Source of the DNA: Alphaproteobacteria bacterium
Lineage (GTDB): Bacteria > Pseudomonadota > Alphaproteobacteria > UBA9219 > RGZA01
DNA: 64,000 nt
Direction: 5' to 3'
Assembly: GCA_033762625.1 (NCBI GenBank)
Contig: JANRLI010000022.1
Coordinates: 1 to 64,000 of the forward strand
Below, piece after piece: positions 16,909 through 25,934 of the stretch (positions are counted from its first letter, which is position 1; every line of letters begins with the position of its first letter). Position numbers and translations under genes: made by a program. The notes under the pieces are model-generated. The model made no database searches and was not told the DNA's origin. It saw only the letters and a program-made list of their open reading frames with translations.

Positions 16909-17880
16909 CTATAGCTTATTATAATTTTTATACCACGCAACAAAGCGGGGGATTCCTTCATCTATCGCAGTTTTGGGAACAAAGCCGAGGATTTGCGTGC
17001 TTTCGGTGATATCTGCGCTGGTTGATGGTACATCACCCGGTTGAATAGGTTGAAAATCATAAATGGCTTTCTTGCCTAGCGCGCTTTCCAAAACGCTGAT
17101 GAAATCAGTCAGTTTTTCTGGATGTGAATTGCCTAAGTTGAATACGCGATGCGGCACGTTGTCTGCTGTAACAGATAATGGGTTGCTTAGTGTTGCCAGA
17201 ATTCCATCAACAATATCGTCAATATAAGTAAAGTCGCGTTGCATCTTGCCATGATTGAACACAGCAATCGGCTCACCAGCCAAAATATTCTTCGTGAATA
17301 AAAATGCCGCCATATCTGGGCGACCCCATGGGCCATAGACGGTAAAGAAACGTAGCCCCGTAGCCGGAAAGCCAAACAGGTGCGCATAGTTATATGCCAT
17401 CAATTCGCCCGCACGCTTGGTTGCGGCATAAAGTGATACCGGCTTTTCAACTGCATCCTTGATGGAGAAAGGGATTTTGGTATTCCCGCCATACACTGAT
17501 GATGAGCTGGCATAGACAAAATGCTTTAAATTCGGGGTATTTCGTGCCAATTCCAACATCGTTAAATGGCCGGTAATATTGCTATCAATATAGGCTTGGG
17601 GATTTTTAAGTGAGTAACGTACGCCAGCTTGCGCTGCCAAATGAATGATGTGCGTAATGGTTTTAGGCAAATTAGCAATGGCGGCTTTGTCGGCCACATC
17701 CATTTTAAAAAACTGGAAATTTTTTTGCGGTAACAATTGATCAAGTCGCGCCTGTTTCAAATTCACATCGTAATAGGTGTTGAGATTATCAATGCCGATG
17801 ACTTCTTCACCGCGCTTCAACAGTGCCTGTACCGTGTGAAAACCGATAAATCCTGCGGCGCCTGTTACCAGAATAGCCAT
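16909..17880 (-). CDS. NAD-dependent nucleotide-sugar epimerase, UDP-glucuronate/TviC type
   Basis: This 323-residue extended SDR has the Rossmann motif TGAAGFIGFH, the catalytic YxxxK in YAATK, and the family phrases VYASSSSVYGGN and RFFTVYGPWGRPDM. The last two are typical of UDP-glucuronate 4-epimerases and the Vi-antigen enzyme TviC. The substrate is probably a UDP-uronic acid or UDP-HexNAcA, given the partner gene. The start codon overlaps the stop of the dehydrogenase by one base (TAATG), so the two work together in making a surface polysaccharide precursor. Confidence 0.88.
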   Translation of the reverse strand: MAILVTGAAGFIGFHTVQALLKRGEEVIGIDNLNTYYDVNLKQARLDQLLPQKNFQFFKMDVADKAAIANLPKTITHIIHLAAQAGVRYSLKNPQAYIDSNITGHLTMLELARNTPNLKHFVYASSSSVYGGNTKIPFSIKDAVEKPVSLYAATKRAGELMAYNYAHLFGFPATGLRFFTVYGPWGRPDMAAFLFTKNILAGEPIAVFNHGKMQRDFTYIDDIVDGILATLSNPLSVTADNVPHRVFNLGNSHPEKLTDFISVLESALGKKAIYDFQPIQPGDVPSTSADITESTQILGFVPKTAIDEGIPRFVAWYKNYNKL

Positions 17881-19184
17881 TACAGGCTCCAATAATGAAG
17901 GCTGGGTGGAACTTCCGCTGGATTAAGTACGGATTTAATATCCATAACCAACGCACCCTTGTTCAGCGCGCCAAGTATTTCTTTTTTATTGCTCAAGAAC
18001 TGGTTATGCGGCACCGCAAGTACCAAGGCATCCAAATTGCTTAAATCGTCTTTGTTACAAAGCGTTATGCCATATTCTTCATGTGCCATTTGTGCGTCAA
18101 CCATCGGGTCATAGACGAATGGCTGTAGGCCAAGCAGCCGCAATTCTTCGATAATGTCAGGAACGCGGCTATTGCGTAAATCGCGCACATTTTCCTTAAA
18201 GGTCAGACCAAGAATGCCGATGCGGGGAACTTTAGCTTCCGCCTTATTGTCCTTGAGCCATCCGCTAAGCTTACGCGCAATGAACGCGCCCATGCTGTCA
18301 TTAATGCGCCGGCCTGCAAGAATAACTTCCGGGTGGTAGCCCAGTTTTTCAGCGCGCGTTGTCAAATAATAAGGGTCAACACCAATGCAATGTCCACCAA
18401 CCAAACCGGGCGTGAAGCGCAGAAAATTCCACTTCGTACCCGCGGCATCCAAAACATCTTTAGTGCGGATATTCATGCGGTCGCAAATCAGTGCCAGCTC
18501 ATTCATCAATGCCACATTCAAATCGCGCTGCGTATTTTCCAAAACCTTTGCGGCTTCGGCAACTGCGATGGATGGAGCTTTATGAAGGCCAGCCTTTACA
18601 ACCGCGCCATATACTGCCTCCAAGCGATTTAGTGTTGCGGTATCTTCTGCGGCAATCACTTTGGTGATGTTTTCCAGCGTATGAACGGGGTCACCGGGGT
18701 TGATGCGTTCGGGCGAATAGCCCAGCTTGAAGTCTACGCCCTGCTTTAATCCGCTGACAGCCGCTATTTCCGGCCCACAGATTTCCTCGGTCAAGCCGGG
18801 ATACACGGTTGATTCAAACACGATGACGGGCAAGTTGAGAGAAGGTGTGGTGCTTTTGCGTTTTGCCAGAACCTTGCCAATAATCGCGCAGGCAGAGAGG
18901 AGTGGTTTTAAATCCGGCTGTTTGCCTTCGGTAATTGGCGTTGGAACGGTCACAATAAAGAAGGTTGCATCTTCCAGCTTCGTGGCGTCCGCGGTTACCG
19001 ATAGTTTAGCCTCTATTATCGTTTGTGCTGAATGTTCGCCTGTCCAGTCGTGACCTTTTTGCAGAGCTTCAACGCGCGCAGCAGAGATATCAAACCCGAT
19101 AGTCGAAGGAAATGTTTTGGCAAGCGATAGCGCGAGCGGCAAGCCTACATACCCCAAACCGATGATAGCGATTTTTTCAGACAC
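17880..19184 (-). CDS. UDP-N-acetylhexosamine 6-dehydrogenase (TviB/WbpA-like)
   Basis: The enzyme oxidises C6 of a UDP-sugar in two NAD-dependent steps. The 434-residue protein has GLGYVGLPLA at the N-terminus, GYSPERINPGDP in the middle, and the catalytic cysteine in GGHCIGVDPYYL. That last motif with the FTPG before it is characteristic of the UDP-GlcNAc/GalNAc dehydrogenases TviB, WbpA and WbpO rather than plain UDP-glucose dehydrogenase. I place the start at the GTG at 19184 because a longer frame would run into the tRNA-Val gene. No strong ribosome-binding site is visible. Confidence 0.87.
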   Translation of the reverse strand: MSEKIAIIGLGYVGLPLALSLAKTFPSTIGFDISAARVEALQKGHDWTGEHSAQTIIEAKLSVTADATKLEDATFFIVTVPTPITEGKQPDLKPLLSACAIIGKVLAKRKSTTPSLNLPVIVFESTVYPGLTEEICGPEIAAVSGLKQGVDFKLGYSPERINPGDPVHTLENITKVIAAEDTATLNRLEAVYGAVVKAGLHKAPSIAVAEAAKVLENTQRDLNVALMNELALICDRMNIRTKDVLDAAGTKWNFLRFTPGLVGGHCIGVDPYYLTTRAEKLGYHPEVILAGRRINDSMGAFIARKLSGWLKDNKAEAKVPRIGILGLTFKENVRDLRNSRVPDIIEELRLLGLQPFVYDPMVDAQMAHEEYGITLCNKDDLSNLDALVLAVPHNQFLSNKKEILGALNKGALVMDIKSVLNPAEVPPSLHYWSL

Positions 19185-19216
19185 GGTATTCAGACACGGA
19201 TTGGTCGCTAAAAAAG

Positions 19217-19291
19217 TGGTGGACACAACAGGGATTGAACCTGTGACCCCTACCATGTCAAGGTAGTGCTCTACCGCTGAGCTATGTGTCC
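19217..19291 (-). tRNA. tRNA-Val (GAC anticodon)
   Basis: The minus strand folds into a cloverleaf with a perfect 7-base acceptor stem (GGACACA with TGTGTCC), D-arm GCTC/GAGC, anticodon stem CTACC/GGTAG around loop TTGACAT (anticodon GAC), and a T-arm with loop TTCAATC. The discriminator A and CCA are encoded. The gene is free-standing and lies between the sugar dehydrogenase and the coiled-coil protein gene. Confidence 0.96.
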
Positions 19292-19342: not shown

Positions 19343-22300
19343 TTAACCAGTCTTACTGGTATCGCTGCCGGTTGGCGGGGTTGTACCGCCAATTTTTTCG
19401 ATGCTTTCAGCAATATGGTGCAGGCGGATAATCGTCGCCATGACGGTATCAATAAACGCCCGTGATTTATCTGGGGTCAATGTTTCTGTTTCACCCATCG
19501 GGTTAATAAAGCCCGTGCCATCAGATGAGAAGCGGTCAAGCATTGCGGAAATGTTTTCAATCTGCTGTTGCAATTGATCCAGATTTGCTTTTTCCGAGAA
19601 TTCGGCAACCGGGCTTGCTGGTGCAGGCGGCGGCGTTACCACCTCAATTACGGTATTGCCATCAAGTCGAATGGTGCTGAGTTTATCCGATGTACCTTCA
19701 AGGCGCTGTGTAATATCACCCAGCTTACCAACCACATGTTCGGAATGGCCTTGCAGTTTGCGCATAAGTTGGTCAAGTGCCTGGGCTGCGGTTTCAACGC
19801 GGCTAGCATCCACCACCACATTAACGGGTTCCTTATCCTTTTCTTCGATGCGCTCAAACCCGCTTTCCACCTGCGCGCCAAGATTTTGCAGGCTGGTCGT
19901 AGTGGATTGCACATCCTGCGCCATTGCTTGCAAATCGGCTTTCAGTTGCAGTAGGTCTTTGGAAAGTACGGTGTCGATGGCATATCCCTTTTCCAATCCT
20001 TCATGGATAAGGCGCATCGCAGGAACCAGTTCTTCGCCAAGATTAATAGTTGGTGCTGGCAGCGGCGTTGATGCTTGCTTTGCAATTGCGGCAGCAGCGG
20101 TGATTTGTGCCGAAGTTGCGCTTTCCACTTGTTCTTTAAGTGCATTAATTTTCTCATCAATACTGCTATCCACAGTGCCGATTTGTTCGGCAAGGTTTTT
20201 ATACCCTGCGGTCAGCATTTCTACCCATCGGCCGATTTGTTGGCGTACGCCATCAAACTCTTCTTTAATATTGCCGATGGTATTGGCAAAACTGGCATTC
20301 ACTTCTTCGAAGCGGATCAATAATTCGGGGTTGGTATCTCCCGCTGCCTTTAATGGGACAGATCCACGAATGCCTTGCGCTTCACCAAGGGATGGAACGA
20401 TTTGACCAAGCTGTCCTGCAACCGCGCCAAGTGTTCCCGTAAGCTGGCTAAGAATACCAAGACGTTGCGCCATATCCTGAACAGAAGAGTGAACCGATTG
20501 AATTTGCGATTTGGTTGTTTCAACGACATCTTTATTGCCGCGCAGCAGGCTGGATGTTGCTTCATCAATGCGAAGAGACATGTTGGCGATTTGCAGATCG
20601 AAGTTATTGGCATTGTCGCTGATGCGCTGTGTTTGCGTTGTAAGGGTAGTCAACAGCTTTTCGGTGTCCTGCGTTACGATTTCGGTACGCGTGTTCATGG
20701 CACGCACATCCTGTTCCAACGCAGTCAGTAATTGGCGTGATTGTTGTGCATAAACTGACCATTCATCGCGCAGCTGTGTTTGCAGCGTGTTGCTGGAATC
20801 TTTTAGCTGTTCGAATATGGGTGCGGTTTCGGTGATATTGGTCTTCCATTCATTGCTGAAGCTCGAATATTCATCACGGATGGATGTCAGAATCCGTGCC
20901 AGCATTTCCGTATGCCCATTCATATTATCAAGCGAGCCCTTCATGAGCTCATGAGCTTCGTTCAGCTGGCTGGAAGCCTTGCCAATCGACTCTCCACTTT
21001 CATCAATGCGGCGGAATGCAGACGCGCTCTTTTCTTCAAACAAAGCCATACGGCCATCAAAGGTGTTCATCGTTTCTGATGCCTGAACGGCACTGCGTGA
21101 CACATCTTCGAGTAAGCTAGTAATACGGTCGGTCTTTTCTTCCGTGTCTCCAAGGAATGCGCGGATAGCCTGATCATGATTTGATACGCTGTTAATCGCT
21201 TCATTAAGGCGCGTACGAGCGGTTTCGGTTGTTTCCTGCATAACCTTGCCGCTGGCGCGAAGCAAATTGGTTGCCGACTGTAATTTTTCGGTAAGGTCTC
21301 TTGCTTGGTTGCTGAACGTGGTGCTTGCTTCCAGACTTTGTTTTGCGGCTGTTTTGATGTCGCGGTCAGAAGCGCTGAGCAATTGCAGGGTTTGGGCAAC
21401 GCGCGCACCGGTTGCACCAGCAATCTGATTAAGCGAATGCATGTCTTTCGAGAACTGGTCAACCATTTGTTTGGCCTGACCTTGAATTTGATTGTTCTGG
21501 TGGAAGAGGGTTGAAAGTTTTTCACCCCATTCATTGGCAGTTGCGTTTATCTGTGAACCGGCATCGGCTATCGTAGCGCTCAGGTTCTTATTAGCATCGG
21601 CTATCGTTGTGCTGATGCTGGTATTCGCTTCCGATATTGTTTCTTTGATATGTGAGCGCGCGTCACTGATGTGCGCATTCACGCTGGAAATTGCGTCTTC
21701 CAGTGTGCGGGTCTGGCGTGATGTTAAATCGCCCAATTCCAGAATGCTTTCTTGTCCGTCTTTACTAACCGTTGCCAGTGTTTGGCTATGTTGGGTCAGG
21801 TTTTCAACGGTCTTTTGCAAATCGGCGATCAGAGCTGTGAACACTGCTGCACTGCGCCCTTCAAACCGCACATGTTGTGCGCCGGTTTCGGTTTCCACAA
21901 CCATATCGGCGAGATTAACAGTGCCCTTGCGGATATTGGCGATGCTGCGGGCCAGACTTCCAAACGCGTCGCTACGGTCTAATCCCCAGATGTGGCCGTT
22001 CAAATCATTTTCTAGTAATTCACGACTGCTGCGTTCCAGTTTGCGAAGCGGCAGCAGTAATCCAAAACGAAACGCAAGAAAGCAAAGCAGCGAAAACACC
22101 ACAAGCCCCGATGCGCAGATTGAAATCAGTTGATAAAGTTGACGATAACTATCGGTAATTTGCGCAAGCTTCATCCTGTCTTGCTGCACATCGATTTCTG
22201 CTTTGTCCTGATCAGCATAGCTGTGTGATTTGATGCGCTCATCCCACATGGTTTGCAATGTGCTAACCGCCTCACGTGTGGACTTTTCATTTTGAATAGC

Positions 22301-22414
22301 GGTAAGTCCAAGGAAGCAGGCGAATCCAACAGCGATGAGCAGCCCTGCAAGACCAATTAACAGTGGCGGATTCGTCTTGGAAGGAGGCAAGCGTGTTTGT
22401 TTCGATAAAGACAT
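19343..22414 (-). CDS. HAMP-domain membrane protein with very long coiled coil
   Basis: The 1023-residue protein has a membrane helix at about residues 18-40, a short 55-residue extracytoplasmic segment, a second helix at about 96-118, then a HAMP-like stretch (PLRKLERSSRELLENDL, to about 165). The rest, about 850 residues, is almost all Ala/Ser/Thr/Gln/Glu-rich amphipathic helix. This is the layout of a chemoreceptor-like sensor, but I see no methyl-accepting tip motif (EIAFQTN-type hairpin) and no kinase or cyclase domain. Residues 243-297 contain 11-residue repeats. It may be a cytoplasmic scaffold anchored in the membrane, or a divergent chemoreceptor. It shares a DnaA-box/promoter design with the upstream J-domain gene. 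Confidence 0.75.
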   Translation of the reverse strand: MSLSKQTRLPPSKTNPPLLIGLAGLLIAVGFACFLGLTAIQNEKSTREAVSTLQTMWDERIKSHSYADQDKAEIDVQQDRMKLAQITDSYRQLYQLISICASGLVVFSLLCFLAFRFGLLLPLRKLERSSRELLENDLNGHIWGLDRSDAFGSLARSIANIRKGTVNLADMVVETETGAQHVRFEGRSAAVFTALIADLQKTVENLTQHSQTLATVSKDGQESILELGDLTSRQTRTLEDAISSVNAHISDARSHIKETISEANTSISTTIADANKNLSATIADAGSQINATANEWGEKLSTLFHQNNQIQGQAKQMVDQFSKDMHSLNQIAGATGARVAQTLQLLSASDRDIKTAAKQSLEASTTFSNQARDLTEKLQSATNLLRASGKVMQETTETARTRLNEAINSVSNHDQAIRAFLGDTEEKTDRITSLLEDVSRSAVQASETMNTFDGRMALFEEKSASAFRRIDESGESIGKASSQLNEAHELMKGSLDNMNGHTEMLARILTSIRDEYSSFSNEWKTNITETAPIFEQLKDSSNTLQTQLRDEWSVYAQQSRQLLTALEQDVRAMNTRTEIVTQDTEKLLTTLTTQTQRISDNANNFDLQIANMSLRIDEATSSLLRGNKDVVETTKSQIQSVHSSVQDMAQRLGILSQLTGTLGAVAGQLGQIVPSLGEAQGIRGSVPLKAAGDTNPELLIRFEEVNASFANTIGNIKEEFDGVRQQIGRWVEMLTAGYKNLAEQIGTVDSSIDEKINALKEQVESATSAQITAAAAIAKQASTPLPAPTINLGEELVPAMRLIHEGLEKGYAIDTVLSKDLLQLKADLQAMAQDVQSTTTSLQNLGAQVESGFERIEEKDKEPVNVVVDASRVETAAQALDQLMRKLQGHSEHVVGKLGDITQRLEGTSDKLSTIRLDGNTVIEVVTPPPAPASPVAEFSEKANLDQLQQQIENISAMLDRFSSDGTGFINPMGETETLTPDKSRAFIDTVMATIIRLHHIAESIEKIGGTTPPTGSDTSKTG
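21524..21688 (-). repeat. 33-bp coding repeats encoding hendecads
   Basis: Within the coiled-coil gene five consecutive 11-residue units (SHIKETISEAN, TSISTTIADAN, KNLSATIADAG and degenerate flanking copies) occupy residues 243-297. At the DNA level the 14-base core GCATCGGCTATCGT recurs at 33-base spacing. Hendecads favour straight, right-handed or non-twisted coiled coils. The repeats are recent enough to be visible in the DNA. Confidence 0.75.
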
Positions 22415-22446
22415 GATATCGCAAGCAGCAAAATGCAGATTAAACC

Positions 22447-22455
22447 TGTGGATAA
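22447..22455 (-). promoter_or_regulatory. DnaA box overlapping the coiled-coil gene promoter
   Basis: The minus strand reads TTATCCACA, a perfect DnaA box. It overlaps the last two bases of the candidate -10 element of the coiled-coil gene and covers the likely transcription start. Confidence 0.6.
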
Positions 22456-22483
22456 TATACGCGAGTTCAAAGCTTTATCGCAA
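22454..22483 (-). promoter_or_regulatory. Putative promoter of the coiled-coil gene
   Basis: On the minus strand TTGCGA (22483-22478) and TATATT (22459-22454) are 18 bases apart. Transcription would start about 30-35 bases before the ATG at 22414. Four and five of six bases match the sigma-70 consensus. Confidence 0.45.
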
Positions 22484-22523
22484 CTAAATCATGCAGAGAA
22501 TAAAGGGCTAAAATCTTTCCGCT

Positions 22524-23576
22524 TTAGGCACGTTTCAATATTGCATCATCCCAACGCGTAACCCCACGCTGAATCCGCATAAGCGGTGTTTGCCGCAATG
22601 TTTGATGGTCACAACGCAACCATTGCTTATCCGGATTGTTTTCCTGACCATTATTTTGCTGCGCTGCAAGGCGGGTGAGGTAACGATACGATTGGGTAAG
22701 GCGAACCATCACATCGTTTGAACCTGTGTTATTTGTGTTGTCCGGATGCAAATTCTTGACCCGTGCGCGATAGGCGTTTTTGACCTCGGTCATGCGGGCC
22801 ACCGCACCTATACCTAAATCGCGGCAAGCTTGTTTTACAATCTGGCGGTCAGGGAGTTTTACTTCCACGCGTGCGAAATTGCAGGCTGGCAGGGGGCCGG
22901 TAAGACGCATATCCAGACGGCCGCGACATTCCTTATCCATCTGCTGTAAAATATTCACAACGCGTTCTTCCTGATGCGCTTCAATCAGCAAAATTGCCTG
23001 CAACACAACATCGTTATCGTTGTTTTCAAGAATAATAATATCCTGCAAATGGCGCTGTAATTGCAACAACATCTGGTCGCGCAATGAACGACGTTCATTT
23101 TCGATTGCATTAGCCGTTGCGCCGTTTTTTGGAAAGCGCGTCATCAATTGCTGCATGGTGGTGTTGTCCCAACGCACAATCAGTGAAAACTGGCGCGATG
23201 TACCATAGCGGCCTAGCAAATCAACAATATCGCGTTGATGGTGCGCCAAGGCCTGCACAATGGATGATTGATGCTGGAAAACACTGTCAAATGACGCAGG
23301 AATGACTTTACCCAAAACGGTCACTGCGCCCAACATGCGGTGATAATGCATCAGGCGTTGCAACTTCACACGGTCAGTATCGTTCCATGGCCAGTTTAGA
23401 GGTTCTTGACCAACCAGAGCGTGCAACATGCCGTTAGAAATAACCATGACTTCCTGATCGCCGATTTTACCGCCATTTTTTTTCAGCGTCATGCAGCCTT
23501 CGTCATCGGTGAAACCGAAGACGCGCAGCGTTGATTGCAAAAGTCCGGCAGCGATGTTGTCGGTAAGATTATTCAT
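22524..23576 (-). CDS. GvpL/GvpF-like protein with C-terminal J domain
   Basis: The 350-residue protein has two parts. Residues about 75-240 follow the gas-vesicle GvpL/GvpF pattern: a His-bearing helix, VIPASFDSVFQ where GvpF proteins have a VLP.RFGTVF-like phrase, then SRQFSLIVRWD, ending at LTGPLPACNFARVEV, which matches the family's LTGPWPPYSF-type end. Residues about 245-310 look like a DnaJ J domain with the HPD motif in VKNLHPDNTNN, which stimulates Hsp70 ATPase. The final 40 residues are unclassified. No gas-vesicle shell gene (gvpA) or other gvp gene is in the window. Role unknown; perhaps a DnaK co-chaperone for a GvpF-fold client. DnaA boxes lie at the promoter. Confidence 0.68.
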   Translation of the reverse strand: MNNLTDNIAAGLLQSTLRVFGFTDDEGCMTLKKNGGKIGDQEVMVISNGMLHALVGQEPLNWPWNDTDRVKLQRLMHYHRMLGAVTVLGKVIPASFDSVFQHQSSIVQALAHHQRDIVDLLGRYGTSRQFSLIVRWDNTTMQQLMTRFPKNGATANAIENERRSLRDQMLLQLQRHLQDIIILENNDNDVVLQAILLIEAHQEERVVNILQQMDKECRGRLDMRLTGPLPACNFARVEVKLPDRQIVKQACRDLGIGAVARMTEVKNAYRARVKNLHPDNTNNTGSNDVMVRLTQSYRYLTRLAAQQNNGQENNPDKQWLRCDHQTLRQTPLMRIQRGVTRWDDAILKRA

Positions 23577-23661
23577 GGTTGATCCGAAATTGAATTCGTT
23601 AGGAATTGTTCAACCATTCATAGCCGCGTTTGCTCCGATTTGTGGAGTCCGAACTTGGCCT

Positions 23662-23689
23662 ATTTTATAATCAGATGTGGATAAGACAA
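23662..23689 (-). promoter_or_regulatory. Putative promoter of the GvpL/F-J gene
   Basis: On the minus strand TTGTCT (23689-23684) and TAAAAT (23667-23662) are 16 bases apart. The start codon is 86 bases downstream of the -10. A DnaA box fills most of the spacer and a second box lies just upstream of the -35. Confidence 0.45.
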
Positions 23690-23699
23690 TTTATCCACA
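23676..23699. promoter_or_regulatory. Inverted pair of perfect DnaA boxes
   Basis: TGTGGATAA (23676-23684) and TTATCCACA (23691-23699) are the two orientations of the consensus DnaA box, facing each other across 6 bases in the gap between the histidine-kinase stop and the GvpL/F-J start. One overlaps the candidate promoter. A pair is enough for DnaA-dependent transcription control; too few boxes are present for me to call an origin. Confidence 0.65.
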
Positions 23700-23723
23700 G
23701 ATGGGGAAAAGCAGCGGTGTGTG

Positions 23724-25934
23724 CTATCCAAGCTCTTTAATATTCATCGATTTTAAGCGCTCATTCAACGCTGAAATAGCTGTTTTAACATGCGTTGGCC
23801 ATGCGTGCAGTACAGTATCATCAGCCCGACCGTGTGCTTTACACTGGGCTTCAATGCTCGCCGCAATCTGGGATAGACGACCAAGACCAAAACTTAACGT
23901 GCTGCTTTTCAAGGAATGCGCATGGCGTTTTACATCATCCCATGTTTCGCTTTTTGCGGCATCCAGCATTGCGGTGCTGGTCGCCATCAAATCAGTATAA
24001 AATTTATTGGAAAACTCACTGATTATTTCTACGCCCAAATCGGTGATGATTTGATTGAGGTGCTGGTCGCTGATTTCAGGCGCAACTTTTTCTTCAACGG
24101 GATCTAAGTCAGTGGCTGGTTGCATTTTGTCATTTGTCCTAGCTTTTGCAGCCCACATAGTGACGCGTTGCTGCAAAATCTCTTTTGATAAAGGTTTTGT
24201 GATGTAGTCATCCATACCGACCGCCAAGCATTCTTCACGGTCACCGCGCATGGCATGTGCGGTCATGGCTATAATTGGCAGAGTTTTTTTATCCGGTAAG
24301 GCGCGAATGGCTTTGGTTGCGGCAAATCCATCCATTTCTGGCATAGCAATATCCATAAACACGAGGTCATAATTTTTTGATTGCACGGCTGCAACCGCTT
24401 TCTTGCCATTATCGACAACATCAACCTTGTGACCACCTTGCTTTAGAAAACTTTCGGCAATCATCTGGTTGGTGGGGTTGTCCTCGACCAATAATATATT
24501 TGCGATAACGGTTTCGTTTGGCAATTCTTGTGCAACATCTTCTTTAATCACTGCATGTTTTGCGGGCGTAAGGGGAATAACAAACCAGAACGTGCTGCCT
24601 TTCCCTACGGTGCTTTCAACACCAACTTCGCCTCGCATCATATCGGTTAAGCGGCGGCAAATCGCAAGGCCAAGACCTGTTCCCGCAAAGCGGCGGGTAT
24701 AAGAACCATCTGCCTGGCTGAACTCGCGAAATAGATGGCTTTTGGATTCTTCACTGATGCCCATACCGGTATCAATCACTTCAAATCTAAGCATCGGAAT
24801 GCGTGTACCAGCGACGGTCTTGCTGTCTTCTTTTAATACCAGTGTTACGCTGCCCTTATCGGTAAACTTGATTGCGTTGGATAAAAAATTCAGCAGGATT
24901 TGTCGTAATCGTGCAGGATCGGAATACAATGTTGCCGGAATGCTTTCCTGAATACTGTAGCTGAGCTGTAATTTTTTATCATCAGCCAGCGGATGGATAA
25001 GAGCAAAGAGATTATCTACCAGCGTCTTGATATTAAAATCGGAATATTCCAGCTCCAATTTACCGGCTTCAATTTTTGAATAATCCAACACATCGTTTAC
25101 AATCACCAATAAGCTTTCAGCAGAGCTTTGTACAATGCCGGTGAGATTGCGCTGGTTCTCATTCAGGGAAGTATTCCGCAACAAAGTGATAGTCCCCAAT
25201 ATTCCGTTAATTGGCGTGCGGATTTCATGACTCATCATCGCAAAAAAACTGTTTTTTAGGCGCTCTGCATGGTTGGCGCGCTCCAGCAATTCGCCGCGCC
25301 GGAATAAGTCCACCAGCAAGAACACAATCATGATACTGCCAAGTACAACAAAGACGACGCTAACGCCTAACAGGTATTTTTCCTTCAGCCGCAGTTCCGC
25401 CAATATTTTGTCGATGTTATTGCGATGAAAATACTGGATGATTTTATCGATGTCGTAAAAATGCGAAGCTGCTTCGTGAACAAATGTAGAAAGCTGTTTG
25501 TTGATGGTGGGGTCTTGCAGGCCATGTTTGGCCTCGATTTCCTCAATACCATCAATGGTTCCATAAACACTGACAAAATTCTGTGTTAAATTATTTGAAT
25601 CGATGTTCGCCATCTGGTCGTTTTGCAGCGTCGTCAGCTTTTCTTTTAGCGTTGCTATGTTTTTGTCAAATTTTTCCTTTTTTTCTTCAGGCGACATCGC
25701 GTCGTTATCAAGCAGAATGTCGAGCCGTGTAATGGTTTCCTGAATATCCAGTAATTCGCGCGGCAGATTCTCACGGTTGATGGTTTCAATTAATCCGATG
25801 CGTTTACCATTCTCATGGAAAGAAAAAATGTTCAGCGCCATAAAACTGGCAAGGAAAAAAACTGCAAACACGATGCTGGTACGTGGCAGGCTGTTATGTT
25901 TTGAAAATACAATCTTAGAAACTTCTGGAAGCAT
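23724..25934 (-). CDS. Hybrid sensor histidine kinase with receiver and Hpt domains
   Basis: The 736-residue protein has two N-terminal helices (about 18-38 and 188-212) around a 150-residue periplasmic helical sensor. Next come HisKA (phospho-His in MMSHEIRTPING), HATPase (LRQILLNFLSNAIKFT, DTGMGIS, GTGLGLAI), a receiver domain (phospho-Asp in LVFMDIAMPEMDG, Lys in TKPLS) and a C-terminal Hpt domain (phospho-His in AHSLKSSTLSFG). This is a full phosphorelay protein of the BarA/ArcB kind. The final response regulator is not nearby. It lies 42 bases after priA on the same strand. Confidence 0.93.
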   Translation of the reverse strand: MLPEVSKIVFSKHNSLPRTSIVFAVFFLASFMALNIFSFHENGKRIGLIETINRENLPRELLDIQETITRLDILLDNDAMSPEEKKEKFDKNIATLKEKLTTLQNDQMANIDSNNLTQNFVSVYGTIDGIEEIEAKHGLQDPTINKQLSTFVHEAASHFYDIDKIIQYFHRNNIDKILAELRLKEKYLLGVSVVFVVLGSIMIVFLLVDLFRRGELLERANHAERLKNSFFAMMSHEIRTPINGILGTITLLRNTSLNENQRNLTGIVQSSAESLLVIVNDVLDYSKIEAGKLELEYSDFNIKTLVDNLFALIHPLADDKKLQLSYSIQESIPATLYSDPARLRQILLNFLSNAIKFTDKGSVTLVLKEDSKTVAGTRIPMLRFEVIDTGMGISEESKSHLFREFSQADGSYTRRFAGTGLGLAICRRLTDMMRGEVGVESTVGKGSTFWFVIPLTPAKHAVIKEDVAQELPNETVIANILLVEDNPTNQMIAESFLKQGGHKVDVVDNGKKAVAAVQSKNYDLVFMDIAMPEMDGFAATKAIRALPDKKTLPIIAMTAHAMRGDREECLAVGMDDYITKPLSKEILQQRVTMWAAKARTNDKMQPATDLDPVEEKVAPEISDQHLNQIITDLGVEIISEFSNKFYTDLMATSTAMLDAAKSETWDDVKRHAHSLKSSTLSFGLGRLSQIAASIEAQCKAHGRADDTVLHAWPTHVKTAISALNERLKSMNIKELG

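Follow-up and report, generated by a model that had tools for sequence, protein, structure and literature searches.

Conserved DnaA boxes upstream of a GvpL/F-J gene and a membrane coiled-coil gene point to probable DnaA control in an alphaproteobacterial family

Results

Perfect DnaA boxes lie upstream of both members of an adjacent gene pair, encoding a GvpL/F-J protein and a membrane coiled-coil protein, in an uncultured alphaproteobacterium. These boxes are likely (probability about 0.8) to be DnaA operators that place both genes in a conserved DnaA regulon of one alphaproteobacterial family. The observations behind this reading are the placement of the boxes, their bias toward intergenic DNA, the regulon that surrounds them, and their retention in front of both genes in two genera. 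Regulons of this type are known already, and the pair would be a newly added member. The analysis links two uncharacterized genes of uncultured alphaproteobacteria to a probable switch tied to the replication cycle. It also yields a comparative set of candidate DnaA targets that includes uvrC, ilvB, nrdA, ccrM, gcrA, ssb and an M23 endopeptidase gene.

DnaA boxes in two short gaps

The pair is encoded on the minus strand of the window (the whole 64,000-nucleotide stretch of DNA analyzed here), with the GvpL/F-J gene at 22524..23576 and the coiled-coil gene at 19343..22414. Upstream of both is a gene for a hybrid histidine kinase with a HisKA-HATPase-REC-Hpt layout (23724..25934, minus strand). 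Exact matches to the consensus DnaA box TTATCCACA occur in the window at three positions, and the 9-mer is present in the promoter region of both genes. In the gap upstream of the GvpL/F-J gene (23577-23723), a proximal box in the orientation of the gene (23676..23684, minus strand) is separated by a 6-bp spacer from an inverted, distal box (23691..23699, plus strand). The gap upstream of the coiled-coil gene (22415-22523) contains the third box (22447..22455, minus strand), 32 bp upstream of the ATG. Our re-scan thereby confirmed the three perfect boxes reported in the initial annotation.

Three copies in two gaps that together span 256 bp compare with an expectation of ~0.03 (P ~6e-6), where the intergenic density assumes 8% non-coding DNA, our own estimate. 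The relaxed motif TTATNCACA has five matches in the window; 15 of 100 shuffled sequences give at least as many, so this count is not significant and the test needs the genome and its relatives. The GvpL/F-J gap also contains GACTCCACA (23641..23649, minus strand), in which a weak DnaA core of the Caulobacter type, CTCCACA, overlaps a CcrM-type GANTC site, here GACTC.

The initial annotation had further placed the boxes on candidate -10/-35 regions, and such overlap is indeed seen in both gaps. The candidate GvpL/F-J promoter, TTGTCT-16-TAAAAT (23662..23689, minus strand), holds the proximal box within its spacer and has the distal box adjoining its -35 element. At the candidate coiled-coil promoter, TTGCGA-18-TATATT (22454..22483, minus strand), the final two bases of the -10 element fall within the box. 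Both promoters were called by consensus match only (9 of 12 positions each), the sigma-70 scan is weak evidence, with five promoters found against 2.3 expected by shuffling, and the candidate -35 of the GvpL/F-J gene is not conserved in the closest relative (G004). Mimicry of a -10 element by the box (GATAAT inside TGTGGATAAT) was considered and rejected; it could apply to the coiled-coil gene of two relatives (G001 and G002), but relative to their genes the majority of conserved boxes point in the opposite direction.

Conservation of the boxes upstream of the pair

We compared the window genome (G000; 2.23 Mb in 26 contigs) with four relatives of the same family (G001-G004), collecting exact boxes with their flanks and matching the downstream genes; a member of another family of the order (G006) was added for some targets. 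The GvpL/F-J gene is present in the five family genomes and was not found when a further 28 genomes of the order were searched; within the order, the gene pair is restricted to one family. Named records with the gene are uncultured alphaproteobacterial or proteobacterial MAGs, and a relative in another alphaproteobacterial family (L150) is without a box.

The boxes are retained at orthologous loci. The GvpL/F-J gene is preceded by a box in the same orientation in all five genomes, at -108 (G000), -107 (G004), -74 (G003), -100 (G001) and -101 (G002) from the ATG; it is exact in four of the five, and in G002 it is the variant also seen at gcrA, TTACCCACA. G000 and G004 are close relatives, and their agreement counts little. 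The distal, inverted box is limited to the genus, occurring outside the window genome only in G004. In G000, G004 and G003, GACTCCACA follows the proximal box at precisely +35/+37; G001 has CTCCACA at +49 from the box, and neither is present in the GvpL/F-J promoter of G002.

Four of the five genomes (G000, G004, G001 and G002) carry a box upstream of the coiled-coil gene. The orientation of this box differs between genera: in G000 and G004 it lies 32 bp from the ATG, and it is inverted in G001 and G002. One of these four loci is relocated, as the coiled-coil gene of G002 is on a different contig from the GvpL/F-J gene, and the box is still present. In G003 the two open reading frames overlap, the gap between them is gone and no box was found near the coiled-coil start; any shared control there would have to run through the upstream gene. 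The end of the G003 GvpL/F-J reading frame differs from its orthologs where it overlaps the coiled-coil frame (L028:10900-11113), which could reflect an error in the assembly or the loss of DNA between short repeats.

The kinase gene is kept upstream in G004 and G002 too and is missing at this position in G003, and the upstream neighbor of the GvpL/F-J gene differs in both G003 and G001; the GvpL/F-J box persists in each. This persistence speaks against reading the boxes as a terminator or as some feature of the kinase gene. It also bears on the possibility that the boxes titrate DnaA, in the manner of datA or DARS, and exert no control over the pair. Strong dispersed boxes can titrate DnaA (see also PMC12371093), and three strong boxes lie within 1.25 kb at this locus. 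However, a site that titrates DnaA would not have to keep a set distance from an ATG (-74 to -108 here), nor does titration account for a GvpL/F-J box that stays when its upstream neighbor changes or for a coiled-coil box that is present even apart from the GvpL/F-J gene, as in G002. We therefore regard titration without control as unlikely.

A candidate DnaA regulon

The window genome contains 31 exact copies of TTATCCACA, compared with 14 of the reversed word, and they are not evenly spread: 23 of the 31 are intergenic, against 1 of 29 reversed-word loci drawn from the window genome and two relatives (Fisher p 6e-9; one ORF caller was used throughout). The copies in this genome are not chance occurrences, and they mark known DnaA targets. 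Intergenic copies are found close upstream of mraZ, uvrC, ccrM (two boxes), nrdA, ssb/uvrA, the M23 endopeptidase gene and others; the lexA box was counted inside an over-long reading frame, yet it lies upstream of the likely ATG.

Many of these targets are shared with relatives. A box is present upstream of uvrC and ilvB in all six genomes, including G006, which also carries boxes at nrdA and ccrM. Five genomes have a box at nrdA and five at a divergent M23/Sel1 pair, whereas ccrM (with two boxes in three genomes) and ssb have boxes in four; those at mraZ, lexA, phoH and others are shared within the genus. Seven box targets are shared with G001 and five with G002, where ~0.7 and ~0.3 would be expected (P ~1e-5 to 2e-5) from rough gene counts (1700, 2000, 25 targets) that are our own estimates. 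In addition, a variant box, TTACCCACAG (that is, TTACCCACA followed by G), is located 184-243 bp upstream of the gcrA reading frame start in all five family genomes (L162:2326; L161:2323; L163:2307; L160:1558; L159:2201), in flanks that have diverged.

This set of targets can be compared with two characterized regulons. In E. coli, the DnaA box TTATCCACA is associated with DnaA regulation of nrdAB, uvrB and dnaA (PMC8203912), and a second source likewise places nrdAB and uvrB under DnaA (PMC6015884). Caulobacter targets include gcrA, ftsZ, mipZ, podJ and nrdB (PMC3193534; PMC4287350), several Caulobacter targets being activated (PMC3193534), and CTCCACA is given as a DnaA motif at podJ (PMC4287350). 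The regulon described here resembles that of Caulobacter crescentus in its promoter boxes and in sharing gcrA and a ribonucleotide reductase gene. The polarity scaffold gene podJ is a target there and a membrane coiled-coil gene here, and podJ P2 and the GvpL/F-J promoter have CTCCACA and GANTC motifs in common. It differs in that its boxes are mostly perfect copies of TTATCCACA, that its conserved candidate targets include uvrC, ilvB and ccrM, the last with two boxes, and that the GvpL/F-J and coiled-coil pair is new. As in E. coli, TTATCCACA is found in promoters of nucleotide-synthesis and repair genes (PMC8203912; PMC6015884), but the gene set differs and the alphaproteobacterial GcrA/CcrM circuit is present.

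Several of the targets are of SOS or repair type (lexA, uvrA/ssb, uvrC), as might be the case if TTATCCACA were read by a regulator other than DnaA. We consider this quite improbable, since the word is the canonical DnaA box and nrdA and gcrA, both known DnaA targets, are among the genes that carry it or its variant. The family also has a single DnaA with an intact domain IV: each genome gave one Bac_DnaA_C match, and domain IV keeps ARPRQ...GGRDHTTV. The dnaA reading frame of G001 is broken by a stop codon in the assembly.

The inverted pair at 23676-23699 could also be read as an RNA hairpin or terminator belonging to the upstream kinase gene, since pairing between its 9-bp arms is possible (-13.7 kcal/mol, z -2.4). 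The terminator was rejected, given that the inverted pair has no T tract and no terminator call and that the second arm is lost in three relatives (G003, G001 and G002), in which one box stays. Rfam gave no match, and this reading would leave the box at 22447 unexplained; we view it as very improbable. It is hardly credible that the boxes arose as random words of AT-rich promoter sequence: the relaxed motif is not enriched in the window, but both the reversed-word control and the sharing of targets across genera contradict chance.

Individual targets displayed some further regularities. At ilvB, which encodes the acetolactate synthase large subunit, TTATCCACA lies at the gene start in 6/6 genomes and is always opposite to the gene orientation (L010:2494; L038:1529; L059:1524; L074:1543; L111:1567; L172:1501); ilvB is not known to be a DnaA target. 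The uvrC box, by contrast, is always in gene orientation in the six genomes (L005:2522 and orthologs; L179:1501). Two boxes 34-38 bp apart precede ccrM in three genomes (L012:2499, 2537; L037:1548, 1582; L108:1514, 1549), an arrangement that suggests a possible direct link from DnaA to ccrM; such a link was earlier predicted in some alphaproteobacteria (PMC2877005). A second gene for a long coiled-coil protein has an upstream box (L011:2498; gene at 2678-5001 of L011) and is kept in the three genomes of the genus. An XRE-like helix-turn-helix regulator gene has an upstream box in G001, G002 and G006 (L039:1568; L060:1514; L166:1501), and no box at such a gene was seen in the window genome.

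Possible mode of control

DnaA control linking both genes to the replication cycle, as put forward in the initial annotation, is supported by this comparison through box placement, the company of known targets and conservation. DnaA would be expected to bind these high-affinity sites, which appear to sit within the core promoters or directly at them, and would there most likely block RNA polymerase by occlusion at both genes. Repression of this kind is suggested by the apparent position of the boxes in the spacer (GvpL/F-J) and on the -10 element (coiled-coil). Expression of the pair would be predicted to increase once initiation has taken place and active DnaA declines. Of all the steps in this scheme, the sign of control is the most doubtful; DnaA might instead activate the pair, as it does several of its targets in Caulobacter, and this is the leading alternative.

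Products of the gene pair

The GvpL/F-J protein (350 residues) was analyzed with Pfam, alignment and Foldseek. It comprises a GvpF-like domain, an invariant GPLPACNFARVExKLPD linker, a J-like domain with an HPD motif and a conserved C-terminal tail. The GvpL_GvpF profile scores 83.5 bits (cut-off 23.6; 3.1e-23), which assigns the protein to that domain family. The DnaJ profile scores 24.5 bits (2.9e-5), below its cut-off of 27.8, in a region of low model confidence; H277-P278-D279 is nevertheless invariant in the five orthologs, and a profile search with the protein matched GvpF and a J-domain chain. The structure model has a low overall confidence (57), being low outside the GvpF core, and a Foldseek search with this low-confidence model returned GvpF structures 4qsg and 6l5d at ~1e-9. 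The protein is like GvpF/GvpL in having the GvpF fold in its first ~235 residues, but adds the J-like domain and tail and has a membrane coiled-coil protein as its partner. No gvp gene was recognized among the neighbors of the pair that were examined. The GvpA profile PF00741 had no match in the five genomes, a weak test in which no positive control passed the cut-off. A literature search for a GvpL/F protein with a J domain returned no relevant paper. The findings on the pair as a whole suggest that a GvpF-like fold serves something besides gas vesicles.

The coiled-coil protein (1023 residues), characterized from its reading frame, Pfam, hydropathy and a five-way alignment, has two N-terminal transmembrane segments (~14-42 and 92-124), a HAMP-like segment and a long coiled coil. 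It shares this layout with chemoreceptor-like alphaproteobacterial HAMP membrane proteins, but Pfam found no MCP signaling domain in it, and it is not classed as a chemotaxis receptor. Relatives in other families have HAMP, and a class-wide search with the N-terminus gave mostly weak matches, in the TM2/HAMP region. A PADLOC hit was set aside, as it reflects coiled-coil similarity to ZorA only.

The coiled-coil protein may be a membrane-anchored, HAMP-type scaffold, and the J-like domain of the GvpF-like protein may recruit DnaK. As a guess, both products might jointly serve a structure of the envelope, of division or of polarity that is built a single time in each cycle. In its fullest form, the idea is that a GvpF-type assembly protein, joined to a J-like domain and no longer tied to gas vesicles, would team up with the scaffold in this lineage. 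The two would form a DnaK-linked assembly module, timed by replication and directly controlled by DnaA, for a structure of the cell cycle (the pole, the division site or the envelope); we offer this as speculation that may well prove wrong.

In another alphaproteobacterial family (L184:1-3512), a gene for a HAMP coiled-coil protein likewise has a hybrid histidine kinase gene beside it, the arrangement seen in the window. Elsewhere in the window, a long UDP-glucose dehydrogenase reading frame (17880-19291) runs into a tRNA-Val gene (19217-19291), and its real start is therefore probably further in.
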